Shown here: positions 48,653 to 52,863 of the stretch, in pieces
Layout: the number at the start of each line of letters is the position of its first letter
Position numbering within the stretch: position 1 is the stretch's first letter
NCBI RefSeq assembly: GCF_000420705.1
Contig: NZ_ATVL01000007.1
Coordinates: 682,001 to 746,000 of the forward strand
Source: Hymenobacter norwichensis DSM 15439
GTDB taxonomy: Bacteria > Bacteroidota > Bacteroidia > Cytophagales > Hymenobacteraceae
DNA length: 64,000 nt
Direction of reading: 5' to 3'
Notes under the pieces: generated by a model
The model's input: the letters and a program-made list of their open reading frames with translations, nothing else
Told to the model about the DNA's origin: nothing
The model's database searches: none
Made by a program: the position numbers and the translations under genes

Positions 48653-49573
48653 ATGGCTTCCGGTTTTTTTGCTCTTTTAGATGACATATCCGCTTTAGTC
48701 AAAGCCAGCGCGGCTAGTCTAGATGACGTACCGGCCCAAGTAGCCAAGACCACCGGCAAAGTGTCCGGTATTGTTATTGATGATACGGCCGTGACACCCA
48801 AGTATGTTGTGGGCCTCGACCCCTCTCGGGAGCTAGCTATTATCTATCAAATAGCCAAGAAGTCCCTAATCAATAAGCTTCTGCTTCTGACGCCTGCGGC
48901 TCTACTACTCGGGTATTTCGCGCCGTGGGCTATTACGCCCATTTTAATGGTAGGTGGGGCTTACTTATGCTTTGAAGGGTACGAAAAGGTGCACTCTTTA
49001 TTTAGCAAACATCCCGACGTGCCAGTGGAAAGTGAAAACGTAAAGCAGATTACGCCCGAGGAGCTGGAACAAGAGCGGGTAGCGGGGGCCGTGCGCACCG
49101 ATATTATTTTGTCCGCTGAAATTATGGCCATTGCCTATAGCCAGGTGACCGGCCAACCGATTGTCAACCAGATTGTCGTTATGGCGGCTGTGGCTGTGTT
49201 TATTACCGTGGCCGTCTATGGCTTTGTGGGCTTGCTCGTGAAAGCAGATGATATCGGCATGCACTTAGCGCAGGATAACTACCCTGCTGTTACGCAAAAA
49301 ATTGGGCGTGGCATCGTGCACTTAATGCCGCGCTTGTTGAGTGTGCTAGGCTATGTGGGAACAGCCGCCATGCTGTGGGTTGGGGCCGAAATCATTGCCC
49401 ACGGCATTCCCTTTACCAATCATTTGCTGCACGGTTTAGAGCAGACATTCGCTCACCTACCGGTGGTGGCATGGTTGGCTAAAGTGCTGGCTTGCGCAGT
49501 AGGCGGGCTCCTGATAGGGTTTGTGGTTGAAAAAGCAGTGTTGCTCTTCAAAAAGATATTCCGCAAGCCTTAA
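48653..49573 (+). CDS. DUF808 family inner-membrane protein (YedI-like)
   Basis: 306 aa. The N-terminus SGFFALLDDISALVKASAASLDDVPAQVAKTTGKVSGIVIDDTAVTP is very typical of DUF808/YedI. Several hydrophobic segments follow (about residues 82-108, 155-192, 220-250, 275-297). Function in the family is unknown. It lies alone between katG and a gene-poor stretch. Confidence 0.92.
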   Translation: MASGFFALLDDISALVKASAASLDDVPAQVAKTTGKVSGIVIDDTAVTPKYVVGLDPSRELAIIYQIAKKSLINKLLLLTPAALLLGYFAPWAITPILMVGGAYLCFEGYEKVHSLFSKHPDVPVESENVKQITPEELEQERVAGAVRTDIILSAEIMAIAYSQVTGQPIVNQIVVMAAVAVFITVAVYGFVGLLVKADDIGMHLAQDNYPAVTQKIGRGIVHLMPRLLSVLGYVGTAAMLWVGAEIIAHGIPFTNHLLHGLEQTFAHLPVVAWLAKVLACAVGGLLIGFVVEKAVLLFKKIFRKP

Positions 49574-50235
49574 CAAAAGTGTATTTACTGGTTCCGTGTA
49601 TCCTTGCCTTGAAAAGCTAGCCCGTTGCCAACGGCTCGGCTAGATTAGGAGAGTTGACCAAAACTATTACTACGGCAGGAACCAGGATTTGATTTGTTTA
49701 GTGTAAATTAAAATTGGTAAAATATAATAAACGCCTTGCTAGAGCAACGAGAAAATAGATAACATTCCGTTGAAATTATGCCTAACGAAGAAGTGGTAGT
49801 ATAGAGGAAGTACAACCACTATACAGTCCAGATACGACTGTGCTTGAAGGTGGCATGTCCTAAGCTAAAGTACTGCTAACGTTAGGCTTCAACCACGGCA
49901 GCAACAGTTGAACTCGATGTTCGAGCTTGGTGGCAGATTTCAACCAAGACGTGGACCTCACTGATGAGCTAGCGCCGCCAAAATTTTAGCTTGTGGGGAT
50001 TTGCCGCAGCCATAGCCTGTCAGCTAAGGCTGCGGAATAAAGAGCTAAAGTTAAGATGGAGCGTACATGCAAAGCAATTGGCCACGCAGGCCATAATTTT
50101 TTTGATAGCAAAAAAGACAACAAAAACTGCGTAGCTCAGCTCGTTAGGTTGGAAATAGAATTTGTGAAGCGCGAGGTGAAAAAAATTAATCTTACTAATG
50201 AATTGCTGGGCTTAACAATGCCTTAATTTTGCGCC
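49574..50235. other. AT-rich gene-poor region before the pyr leader
   Basis: 662 bp with no convincing gene. A stem CCGCAGCC / GGCTGCGG (50004-50011, 50028-50035) and an isolated 56-codon frame (50056-50226) are present, but neither looks functional. The pyrB promoter lies at its end. The base composition contrasts with the GC-rich flanks, consistent with a junction or decayed DNA. Confidence 0.6.
50203..50231 (+). promoter_or_regulatory. Bacteroidota-type promoter for pyrBC
   Basis: TTG (50203-50205), 18 bases, then TAATTTTG (50224-50231) match the TTG / TAnnTTTG pattern of the main sigma factor in Bacteroidota. Transcription would begin near 50236-50240, giving a leader of about 290 nt before pyrB. 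Confidence 0.7.
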
Positions 50236-50259
50236 ATGCTTCAACCAAAAAATTCGTTG

Positions 50260-50472
50260 ATGAAGCGCGAGATCCTGCTCGGCTGGGAACCGCGAGTGGA
50301 CCGTAAGGTCTTCGCCATCATTGGTTTCCCCGATTTTGCCTTTGGTATCTCTATTGTCTCTTCTGATTGTTGCCCCGCTACCGTTTCGGATTCCGAAACG
50401 GTTTTTTTATGCCCGCTGAGTTTGGCGGCTGCCGTCGCGCAGCACGCAGCTTCCCGTTATGGCGAGGGGTAG
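50260..50472 (+). CDS. Putative pyrB leader peptide overlapping the attenuator
   Basis: A 70-aa frame from ATG 50260; the frame is open from 50236, but that ATG lies at the predicted transcription start. It runs through a pyrimidine-rich stretch (about 50320-50380) and the intrinsic terminator (50380-50408), then stops 57 bp before pyrB. It resembles no protein family I know. The layout parallels the E. coli pyrBI leader, where ribosomes following RNA polymerase prevent the terminator from forming when UTP is low. The match is architectural only. Confidence 0.4.
   Translation: MKREILLGWEPRVDRKVFAIIGFPDFAFGISIVSSDCCPATVSDSETVFLCPLSLAAAVAQHAASRYGEG
50380..50408 (+). terminator. Intrinsic terminator (attenuator) in the pyrB leader
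   Basis: ACCGTTTCGG and CCGAAACGGT pair perfectly around ATT and are followed by a run of T. It lies between the promoter and pyrB, so it must be read through for expression; no gene stop precedes it except in the leader frame. Confidence 0.9.
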
Positions 50473-50529
50473 ATAAGAATTAACACTGTCCATTTTAGCT
50501 AGTCAACCTCATTTTTCCTCAACTTCGGT

Positions 50530-51510
50530 ATGGCACGTAAAGACCTGCTCGACATTGCCTCCCTCCATCGTGAGGAAATCGAGTTCCTGCTCGACCAATC
50601 CACGTCCTTTAAAAAACTGTTCACCCACTCGGTGAAGAAAATTCCTGCGCTAGAGGGCAAGTCCGTGCTCATGCTGTTCTATGAGGCCAGCACCCGGACC
50701 CATTCTTCCTTTGAGGTGGCGGCCAAGCGCCTCTCGGCGGAGGTAACGAATTTCGACGTCGCCCATTCCTCCATCACCAAGGGCGAGTCGGTGCGCGAGA
50801 CCATCGAGACGCTCCAAGCTATGCGCACCGATTATATCGTCGTCCGCCACAGCCACCCCGGCCTGCCCGGCATGATTGCCCGCCAAACCACGGCGTCGGT
50901 TATCAATGCCGGCGACGGGGCGCACGAGCATCCCACCCAAGCCCTGCTGGATGCCTTCACCATCAAGGAAAAATTCCCTGATCCTCGGGGTAAAAGAGTG
51001 CTCATCATCGGCGACATTCTCCACTCTCGCGTCGCGCGCTCTACCAGCACGTTGCTGCAAAAGCTAGGTGTTGAAGTTGCCTACCTTGGTCCAGGCTCGC
51101 TGGTGCCCAAATACGTGCCGGAAAGCATCCCCCGCTTCACCGACTACGAAGCGGCCATGGCTTGGGCCCCCGATGTAGTGTACTTGCTCCGTGTGCAGAT
51201 GGAGCGCCAAGACGTGCAGTTTTTCCCTAGCGTCCGCGAATACCACCGGGTGTACGGCATTACTACTGCCCGGCTAGCGGAAATCCGCGATAAGGGTCTC
51301 TACATCATGCACCCTGGCCCCGTGAACCGGGGGGTTGAGCTGTGCGATGCCGTTATGGACTATGAGCGCAGCCTGATTACCAACCAAGTTGAAAACGGCA
51401 TCTCCATCCGCATGGCCGTGCTCGACTGGCTCACGCCAGGCGGGGAGTTCCCGAAACAGGAGGCATATGCCGCGCGGCAGCGGGCTGGCTCATCGGTGAT
51501 TATGCCCTAA
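50530..51510 (+). CDS. pyrB: Aspartate carbamoyltransferase, catalytic chain
   Basis: Joins carbamoyl phosphate and aspartate, the committed step of pyrimidine synthesis. The 326-aa length is normal. Motifs: FYEASTRTHSSFEVAAKRL (carbamoyl-phosphate loop), GDGAHEHPTQALLDAFTI (HPTQ), RVQMER and MHPGPVNRGVEL. The loop reads STRTH where most enzymes, including the usual Bacteroidota PyrB, have STRTR; the essential STRT is kept. No pyrI regulatory gene is adjacent. Expression is probably controlled by the leader terminator at 50380. pyrC follows 75 bp downstream. The sequence may come from another phylum (see findings). Confidence 0.96.
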   Translation: MARKDLLDIASLHREEIEFLLDQSTSFKKLFTHSVKKIPALEGKSVLMLFYEASTRTHSSFEVAAKRLSAEVTNFDVAHSSITKGESVRETIETLQAMRTDYIVVRHSHPGLPGMIARQTTASVINAGDGAHEHPTQALLDAFTIKEKFPDPRGKRVLIIGDILHSRVARSTSTLLQKLGVEVAYLGPGSLVPKYVPESIPRFTDYEAAMAWAPDVVYLLRVQMERQDVQFFPSVREYHRVYGITTARLAEIRDKGLYIMHPGPVNRGVELCDAVMDYERSLITNQVENGISIRMAVLDWLTPGGEFPKQEAYAARQRAGSSVIMP

Positions 51511-51585
51511 GTGCCGAACGCGGCGGTTAACTCTTTACTTTTACTTCTTCCATACCCCTTGCCGGTTTACAGCAATTATCACCTC

Positions 51586-52863
51586 ATGCTTCTCCTTCAA
51601 AACGCCCGCATTGCCTCCGAAAATTCACCTGTGCTGCTCGAGGGCGACGTCCTGATTGTCGAGGGGAAAATTCAGGACATTGGACCCAACCTGACTGTTC
51701 CCAAAGGAGCCCGCGTCATCGACGCGCGGGGCCGGGTGCTGATGCCGGGTATGTTTGATGCCCACGTTCATTTCCGCGCCCCTGGGTTTGAGAACAAGGA
51801 AACCATTACTACGGGGAGTGAGGCAGCTATCAATGGCGGCATTACTGGCGTGGTGATGATGCCCAATACCCGCCCGGCCATCGACTCGGCAACGGTGGTA
51901 GCTACGGTGCTGGAAAATGCCAAGCACCGGTCGCGCATTCCGGTGTATACCTCCGGCTGTGTCACCAAGAACCGTGAGGGCAAGGAACTAGCGGAAATTG
52001 AGGGGATGCACCGACTCGGCGTGACCATGCTGACCGACGATGGAGACACCACCAACGACCCAGCGGTGCTGCTACGGGCTATGCAGTACGCCACCGAGTT
52101 TGGGATGTTTTTCGCCAGCCACTGCGAGGTGCCGGAGCTGGCTGGGCCGCGCGCCCTCAACGAAGGCGTGATGAGCTACCGGCTCGGCATTAAGGGCTCA
52201 CCGGCCTGCGCCGAGGAAATCATCATTGACCGCGACATCCGGCTGGCCCGGGCGGCGGGTGCGCACGTGCACATCCAACACGTATCCAGCAAGCTCGGCA
52301 TGGAAACGATTCGCTGGTGGAAATCCCGCGGCGACGTGAAGGTGACGGCCGAAGTGGCCCCGCACCACCTGCTGTTCACCGACGAGCACATCGGCGACTA
52401 CGACACCAACTATAAGATGAACCCACCGCTGCGCACGCAGGCCGATTGTGATGCGCTGCTGGAAGGGCTCATCGACGGCGTATTCGACCTTATTGCCACC
52501 GACCACGCGCCACACACGCCGTTTGAAAAAGCGCAGGATTTCATCAGCGCGCCCAACGGCATCACCGGCCTAGATACCGCCCTCGTGTCGCTCCACCATT
52601 TCTTTATTGAGCCCGGCAAATTTGGGTGGGACTTATTGGTGAAGCGCTACTCAGCGGAACCCCGCCGCCTGATGGGTTTGCCAGTACCCACCATCGAAGT
52701 CGGTCAGCCAGCAGAGTGTATTTTGTTTGATACCGAAGCGGAAACGACCTTTACGCGGGAATTCATGAAATCCAAATCCCAGAACACGCCCTTCATCGAC
52801 CAGACGTTGAAAGGACGGGTAGATCTGGTGATTTTGGGTTCGGAAATCCTGCTGGAGCGCTAA
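51586..52863 (+). CDS. pyrC: Dihydroorotase (class I)
   Basis: Cyclises carbamoyl-aspartate to dihydroorotate. The ATG at 51586 gives 425 aa starting MLLLQNARI; an upstream GTG at 51511 directly follows the pyrB stop but adds 25 residues not expected for the family. Amidohydrolase motifs: MPGMFDAHVHFRAPGFENKE (HxHxR), GGITGVVMMPNTRPAID, the Asp of MLTDDGDTT, AEVAPHHLLFT and LIATDHAPHTPFEKA (catalytic Asp). It forms an operon with pyrB; the remaining pyr genes are not in the window. Confidence 0.95.
   Translation: MLLLQNARIASENSPVLLEGDVLIVEGKIQDIGPNLTVPKGARVIDARGRVLMPGMFDAHVHFRAPGFENKETITTGSEAAINGGITGVVMMPNTRPAIDSATVVATVLENAKHRSRIPVYTSGCVTKNREGKELAEIEGMHRLGVTMLTDDGDTTNDPAVLLRAMQYATEFGMFFASHCEVPELAGPRALNEGVMSYRLGIKGSPACAEEIIIDRDIRLARAAGAHVHIQHVSSKLGMETIRWWKSRGDVKVTAEVAPHHLLFTDEHIGDYDTNYKMNPPLRTQADCDALLEGLIDGVFDLIATDHAPHTPFEKAQDFISAPNGITGLDTALVSLHHFFIEPGKFGWDLLVKRYSAEPRRLMGLPVPTIEVGQPAECILFDTEAETTFTREFMKSKSQNTPFIDQTLKGRVDLVILGSEILLER

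Follow-up and report, generated by a model that had tools for sequence, protein, structure and literature searches.

Pyrimidine operons of Bacillus are regulated by PyrR through a terminator in the leader, and in the trp and his attenuators translation of a leader ORF decides over the terminator, with leader hairpins that can synchronise polymerase and ribosome. E. coli pyrC is regulated by a nucleotide-dependent shift of the start site. For E. coli pyrBI, whose leader contains the ORF pyrL, pausing and ribosome coupling are described in PMC4824070 and PMC5021804.

We here analysed a 64-kb stretch of Hymenobacter DNA (the window, meaning the whole stretch), in which the leader of pyrBC shares with E. 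coli pyrBI, as judged by eye, the order of its parts—start, hairpin, U-rich tract and a terminator inside an ORF—as well as the downstream gene, encoding aspartate carbamoyltransferase. The two are not identical: the pyrL ORF comprises 44 codons and ends 3 nt before pyrB, whereas the Hymenobacter ORF ends 57 nt ahead of it, and the Hymenobacter leader has a start codon at its predicted 5′ end, conserved covarying helices, an additional copy before pyrDFE and a place in another phylum. With PyrR attenuation as known from Bacillus it has pyrimidine operons and a leader terminator in common, but no PyrR above the cut-off is encoded in leader-bearing genomes of the family sample, and the window gave no match to a PyrR RNA family. 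Unlike in trp and his leaders, the translations hold no run of one regulatory codon, codon positions are under no recognisable constraint, and inspection by eye revealed no conserved antiterminator. A covariance model of the leader (model R1) matched nothing around pyrB of E. coli (L238) at E-values up to 1; most likely, the Hymenobacter element therefore works like a pyrBI attenuator without being a member of that group by descent. No description of this leader was found in the literature covered, an absence that weighs little since most subscription journals lie outside that coverage.

Anatomy of the pyrBC leader

A gene for a DUF808 protein (window 48653-49573) lies upstream of the leader, and purE (53325) follows downstream of pyrC. 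A sequence-only reading of the region had named a Bacteroidota-type promoter, an open frame at 50260-50472 with its stop 57 nt before pyrB, a T/C-rich stretch of 60 bases and an intrinsic terminator. All four are present as described, and the same frame can begin at 50236, which makes it 78 codons long. Beyond that reading, we find a structured 5′ part, this earlier start codon (s1) and a second copy in the genome. The parts are:

50203-50231, + strand: promoter of Bacteroidota type, TTG at 50203-50205 and box TAATTTTG (TAnnTTTG) at 50224-50231
50236-50408, + strand: leader RNA, 173 nt, with helices, pyrimidine-rich tract and terminator, and an open frame running through
50236-50238, + strand: s1, first in-frame start codon (ATG), predicted transcription start and possible leaderless start
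50236-50472, + strand: leader ORF, crossing the terminator
50239-50265, + strand: P0, putative pairing of CUUCA (50239-50243) with UGAAG (50261-50265), which would overlap part of s2
50260-50262, + strand: s2, second in-frame ATG, the start named in the earlier reading
50266-50294, + strand: P1 hairpin, 50266-50270 with 50290-50294
50297-50312, + strand: P2 hairpin, around GACC-GUAA-GGUC
50320-50379, + strand: U-/pyrimidine-rich tract, directly 5′ of the terminator and overlapping P3
50322-50332, + strand: P3, a short 3-bp helix with covariation
50380-50408, + strand: intrinsic terminator, a stem-loop of 10 pairs (50380-50402) followed by T's to 50408
50530-51510, + strand: pyrB, aspartate carbamoyltransferase catalytic chain (NF002032, 355.7 bits, cut-off 263)
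51586-52863, + strand: pyrC, dihydroorotase (TIGR00857, 380.8 bits, cut-off 279.05; the profile search covered 51511-52860, and the ATG at 51586 was read from the sequence)

The TAnnTTTG box, preceded in the window by a TTG 18 bp upstream, stands 4 nt 5′ of the leader start in all 86 leaders that were aligned (alignment A1: 50 pyrB-type from the genus, 8 from its sister genus, 26 D-type and 2 before purE). It recurs in 50/50 leaders of a hold-out set, which consists of the 51 covariance-model matches unused in model building (16 pyrB-type and 35 others, including L219, dropped here and below); the −33 TTG is present in only 36 of the 86. Judged by the position of the box, transcription would start at or next to 50236. 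The s1 position, 4 nt 3′ of the box, holds ATG in 59 and GTG in 77 leaders, together 136/136, of which the 50 hold-out leaders were read purely by position and so give an unbiased 50/50; in the other 86, s1 was chosen with the help of a pattern, which left only the first base open for the 50 pyrB-type leaders and demanded [AG]TG, GTG or ATG for the remaining 36. The first base of s1 would equally follow from transcription starting on a purine.

The leader ORF is probably leaderless. A survey from 2011 reported leaderless genes for 1 of 37 Bacteroidetes/Chlorobi genomes, and its authors caution that such genes are underestimated in this group (PMC3160421). The s2 codon is ATG in 74/86 leaders and ACG, CTG or ATA in the other 12. 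In five leaders the s1 frame is shifted, and there the frame from s2 clears the hairpin. These five carry a UAAUG stop/start overlap at s2, which we do not count as translational coupling, because the usual UGAUG at s2 yields an overlapping stop after the same shift.

As in pyrBI-type attenuators, an intrinsic terminator lies between promoter and pyrB. Its sequence is unique, with no other site in the 64 kb at up to 3 mismatches (none expected), and across the 86 aligned leaders its cells are paired in 99.1%, with one U-A pair replaced by C-G in 11. The tract before it consists of 47% T and 73% pyrimidine and thereby exceeds 99.93% (T) and 99.89% (C+T) of 60-nt windows taken from both strands at steps of 5 nt. 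A U-rich tract ahead of the terminator, likewise a property of pyrBI-type attenuators, is common to all four leader classes: mean T amounts to 0.42–0.48 in the tract vs 0.14–0.18 in the 5′ part (86 leaders).

Conservation, a second copy and the distribution of PyrR

How widespread is this arrangement? In the genus, pyrB was found in 50 of the 61 sampled genomes (no match in the other 11), and the leader stands upstream of it in 50/50. These leaders start with ATG in 38 cases and GTG in 12, their frame clears the terminator hairpin in all 50 and stops before pyrB in 48, and the terminator arm CCGTTTCG is found in 49, with compensating changes in both arms of L020. ORF and terminator of the sequence-only reading are thus both kept in relatives, throughout the 50 genus pyrB leaders. 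The 5′ arm of the terminator is separated from pyrB by 77–265 nt in 48 of 49 leaders measured and by 552 nt in L053 (genome G012), which suggests an insertion between terminator and pyrB.

A DNA search with the leader returned more diverged copies in the same genus. The window's own genome has a second copy (L105:2583-2734) directly before pyrD, pyrF and pyrE, with pyrF and pyrE above their family cut-offs and pyrD a clear match below its own (135 bits vs 269). Among 63 matches not associated with pyrB, 60 precede pyrD/pyrF/pyrE genes and 2 precede purE; the one left, L219, has no pyr gene downstream and was rejected as a false positive. In Hymenobacter, the same conserved leader heads both main pyrimidine gene sets.

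Several further observations concern these loci. In 29 of the 60 pyrD/pyrF/pyrE loci, an asparagine-ligase-like gene, or at minimum a fragment of one, comes first. Its product resembles class-II Asn/Asp ligases, with a match that begins near position 130 of Asn-tRNA ligase profiles, and in D-type loci such as L078 (905-1939) the gene is often at the head of the pyrD-pyrF-pyrE operon; several D-type loci hold pieces only, and others, including that of the window's genome, none. The two copies before purE (L064 and L066, genomes G003 and G034) are extra leaders of the pyrB type. The window's genome also encodes a second pyrD-like gene (L106:970-2010, − strand), and no terminator of the leader type was found in the 5-kb stretch around it. 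In the 11 genomes of the genus where no pyrB exceeds the family cut-off (G016, G017, G022, G030, G031, G036, G037, G038, G042, G045 and G050), a pyrC relative is at best 34% identical, and the first steps of de novo pyrimidine synthesis may have been lost. Fuller scoring nonetheless recovered the leader in 11/11, followed by pyrD and/or pyrF in the nine examined (all except G038 and G050).

In the other genera of the family that were sampled, the leader gives way to PyrR. With filters that are stricter and can lose weak matches, a search of 120 genomes of the family placed model R1 in 43/43 genomes of the window's genus (g1), 8/8 of the sister genus (g5) and 0/69 of four other genera, and a search across the class matched 3/295 genomes, all g1. 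An exact pattern of the 5′ part, run over a collection of 84,980 species (contigs of at least 3,000 bases; records near the window may be absent), hit 74 stretches, all titled Hymenobacter. One R1 match on the minus strand of the window (50110-50268, 14.8 bits, E 0.017) was taken as chance. PyrR (NF003549) exceeds its cut-off in 68/69 genomes that lack the leader, the miss (G094) being 78% complete, and in 0/51 leader-bearing genomes of the family.

The earlier reading had seen no PyrR gene or PyrR-binding loop near the locus, and this extends well beyond the window: PyrR exceeds the curated cut-off in 0/61 genus genomes, the window's own included, and weak sub-cut-off matches in 35 of them are taken for other phosphoribosyltransferases. 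Rfam searches gave no PyrR RNA family and no riboswitch, neither for the window at the gathering threshold, where just a tRNA matched, nor for 50150-50560 at E up to 10, where six weak matches appeared (the best, ylbH on the other strand at E 0.091, was discarded). Hence neither mark of PyrR-dependent attenuation, an encoded PyrR or a known PyrR-binding RNA element, was found. Four loci read in other genera have the PyrR gene immediately 5′ of pyrB; these pyrB are 46–50% identical to that of the window, as compared to 84–88% for pyrB of g5, and the regulator and pyrB therefore seem, on sequence grounds, to have changed together.

Reading frame and helices

Does the open frame reflect selection? 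Across all 136 leaders (86 aligned and 50 hold-out, the frame read from 4 nt after the promoter box), it extends beyond the hairpin in 127, stops within the hairpin in 7 and falls 5 nt short of it in 2, the latter two groups counting against a pyrBI-like model. In the pyrB-type leaders it is open from s1 through the T-run in 76/76 (74 before pyrB, 2 before purE), and in the hold-out set 16/16 pyrB-type leaders are open past the terminator. Judging from leader lengths, length changes in the pyrB type are out of frame in 6 leaders and in frame in 6, a further point against such a model. Six of the 76 are frameshifted near the terminator and were excluded from the frame test. Among the remaining 70, stops occur in none in the coding frame vs 16 and 30 leaders in the other two frames. 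Simulations along the tree predicted 6.3 (site-specific base pools) or 8.1 (transition-biased) stop-bearing leaders, and only 4/500 and 3/500 runs, respectively, were as low as the observed 0/70. A run with 57 sequences pointed in the same direction (0 observed vs 6.6, 13.5 and 18.4 expected under three models), and dinucleotide shuffles led us to expect 23/58 open leaders vs 58/58 observed. Openness by chance being unlikely in these simulations, the frame of the pyrB-type copies appears to be under constraint.

The encoded peptide is another matter. From s2 to the terminator, changes are spread evenly over the three codon positions, with no excess at the third (199/184/202; 162/154/173 in an earlier set), which rules out a conserved leader peptide and argues that openness, not the peptide, is kept. 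In the s1–s2 stretch, changes number 32/10/27, from too few sites to rely on. D-type copies gave no frame-specific signal either: in 56 of the 61 leaders (L187, L209, L212, L217 and L219 excluded), 52 are open in frame 0, 53 in +1 and 22 in +2, where shuffles expect 28. Frame +1 is no less open than the coding one, probably owing to an A-poor tract, and the D-type copies alone thus lend no support to translation.

Upstream of the tract, the leader aligns with few gaps across both operon types, and the tract itself varies by tens of nt. P1 is paired in 99.1% of cells with changes on both sides in 3/5 pairs (the window copy has one mismatch), P2 in 89.1% with 3/6 (its outermost pair forms in only 43/86), and P3 in 92.3% with 3/3, its columns being empty in 4/86 and the alignment around it uncertain in several D-type leaders. 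P0, at 96.7% paired and with no pair changed on both sides, is weakly supported. For all five helices, counting the terminator, 95.8% of cells in the 86 leaders are paired; 50 cells show both-side changes vs 11.9 in shuffles, and the covariation score is 0.183 vs 0.145, with 0/500 shuffles as high, although these shuffles ignore relatedness among the leaders. Sliding the partners by 1–3 columns yielded at most 44.1% paired cells, 31 both-side cells and a score of 0.080, a comparison that favours the unslid structure in so far as four of the five helices came from a fold of the same alignment. The full-length window leader folds more stably than shuffles (z −2.82), with a contribution from the terminator; its 5′ 85 nt alone are unremarkable (z −1.16). 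The loops of P1 and P2 are variable, and the 5′ end is nearly invariant in sequence. We also considered, by eye, whether the P2 loop could pair with the terminator arm, and dropped the idea because variation in the loop is not mirrored in the arm.

Proposed mechanism and its rivals

We lean towards the leader being a pyrBI-type transcription attenuator peculiar to Hymenobacter that controls both pyrBC and pyrDFE. Transcription would begin at or next to 50236, so that the emerging RNA offers a ribosome an AUG or GUG right at its 5′ end. RNA polymerase would then traverse P1 and P2, hairpins that may slow or synchronise its progress, and enter the U-rich tract of ~60 nt. At low UTP, polymerase would stall in the tract and be caught up by the ribosome, which would then sit on the terminator's 5′ arm and let transcription continue into the pyr genes; at high UTP, polymerase would run ahead, the terminator would fold and transcription would stop. 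The layout of the ORF is that required of a pyrBI-type attenuator, in that a translating ribosome would be brought onto the terminator. Anatomy, conservation, attachment to two pyrimidine operons, a distribution complementary to that of PyrR and, for pyrB-type copies, a constraint that keeps the frame open are read directly from the genomes; we infer where transcription starts, that the ORF is translated, that UTP is the signal and what the hairpins do.

The likeness to pyrBI that the sequence-only reading had proposed stands in part. It holds genus-wide and at pyrimidine genes, with a pyrB-type frame open beyond what simulations yield and with PyrR missing. Sitting less well with it are the conserved helices, which the simple E. 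coli model does not require, and the openness of D-type copies, which is not frame-specific. As the main extra over pyrBI, the helices may act as pause or synchronising hairpins, or as a binding site.

The latter possibility leads to a structured-RNA attenuator, in which P1-P2, with or without P0, would serve as the binding site of a pyrimidine nucleotide or RNA-binding protein, binding would determine whether the terminator forms, and the open frame would be a by-product of the A-poor, U-rich tract. Covariation above that of shuffles and of slid partners, a 5′ part that hardly tolerates gaps next to a length-variable tract, the missing codon-position signal and the D-type frames all speak for it. 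Yet we consider it the less likely of the two, though a serious rival: no conserved antiterminator pairing was recognised by eye, variable P1 and P2 loops are not what is typical of an aptamer, no known Rfam riboswitch matched, and neither ATG/GTG in 50/50 hold-out leaders nor the stop-free frame of the pyrB type finds an explanation. A bolder proposal, to which we give little credence, is a new class of RNA regulator: P0-P1-P2 would sense a pyrimidine nucleotide directly or via an unknown protein and thereby control whether the leader ORF, itself leaderless, is translated, and termination would depend on that translation. If true, such a class would have taken over two pyrimidine operons in a PyrR-less lineage.

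Could the 5′ end itself be the switch? Pairing of the 5′ end with the s2 region (P0) might, through a nucleotide-dependent start shift of the E. coli pyrC kind, open or close the ORF, and the high pairing of P0 and the near-invariant 5′ end would suit such gating of leader translation. But no P0 pair has changed on both sides, and the diverged leaders L209 and L212 have an altered 5′ arm of P0 and still keep the s1 GTG, so that we regard this as highly improbable. That the terminator is constitutive and partly leaky, setting a basal level without any signal, is compatible with the fact that no sequence feature proves regulation; presence in 51/51 genomes, attachment to two pyrimidine operons and the absence of PyrR from the same 51 are hard to reconcile with it, and we find it barely credible.

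Among the sampled genomes, two sister genera thus have a cis RNA element on pyrimidine operons but lack PyrR, and in their relatives within the family the situation is reversed. Bacteroidota genes generally lack Shine-Dalgarno sequences (PMC3155529), and translation initiation in this phylum is called largely unknown in PMC3160421. If the proposed pyrBI-type coupling is true, the leader would offer a natural, testable reporter for transcription-translation coupling in Bacteroidota, and possibly for leaderless initiation as well.
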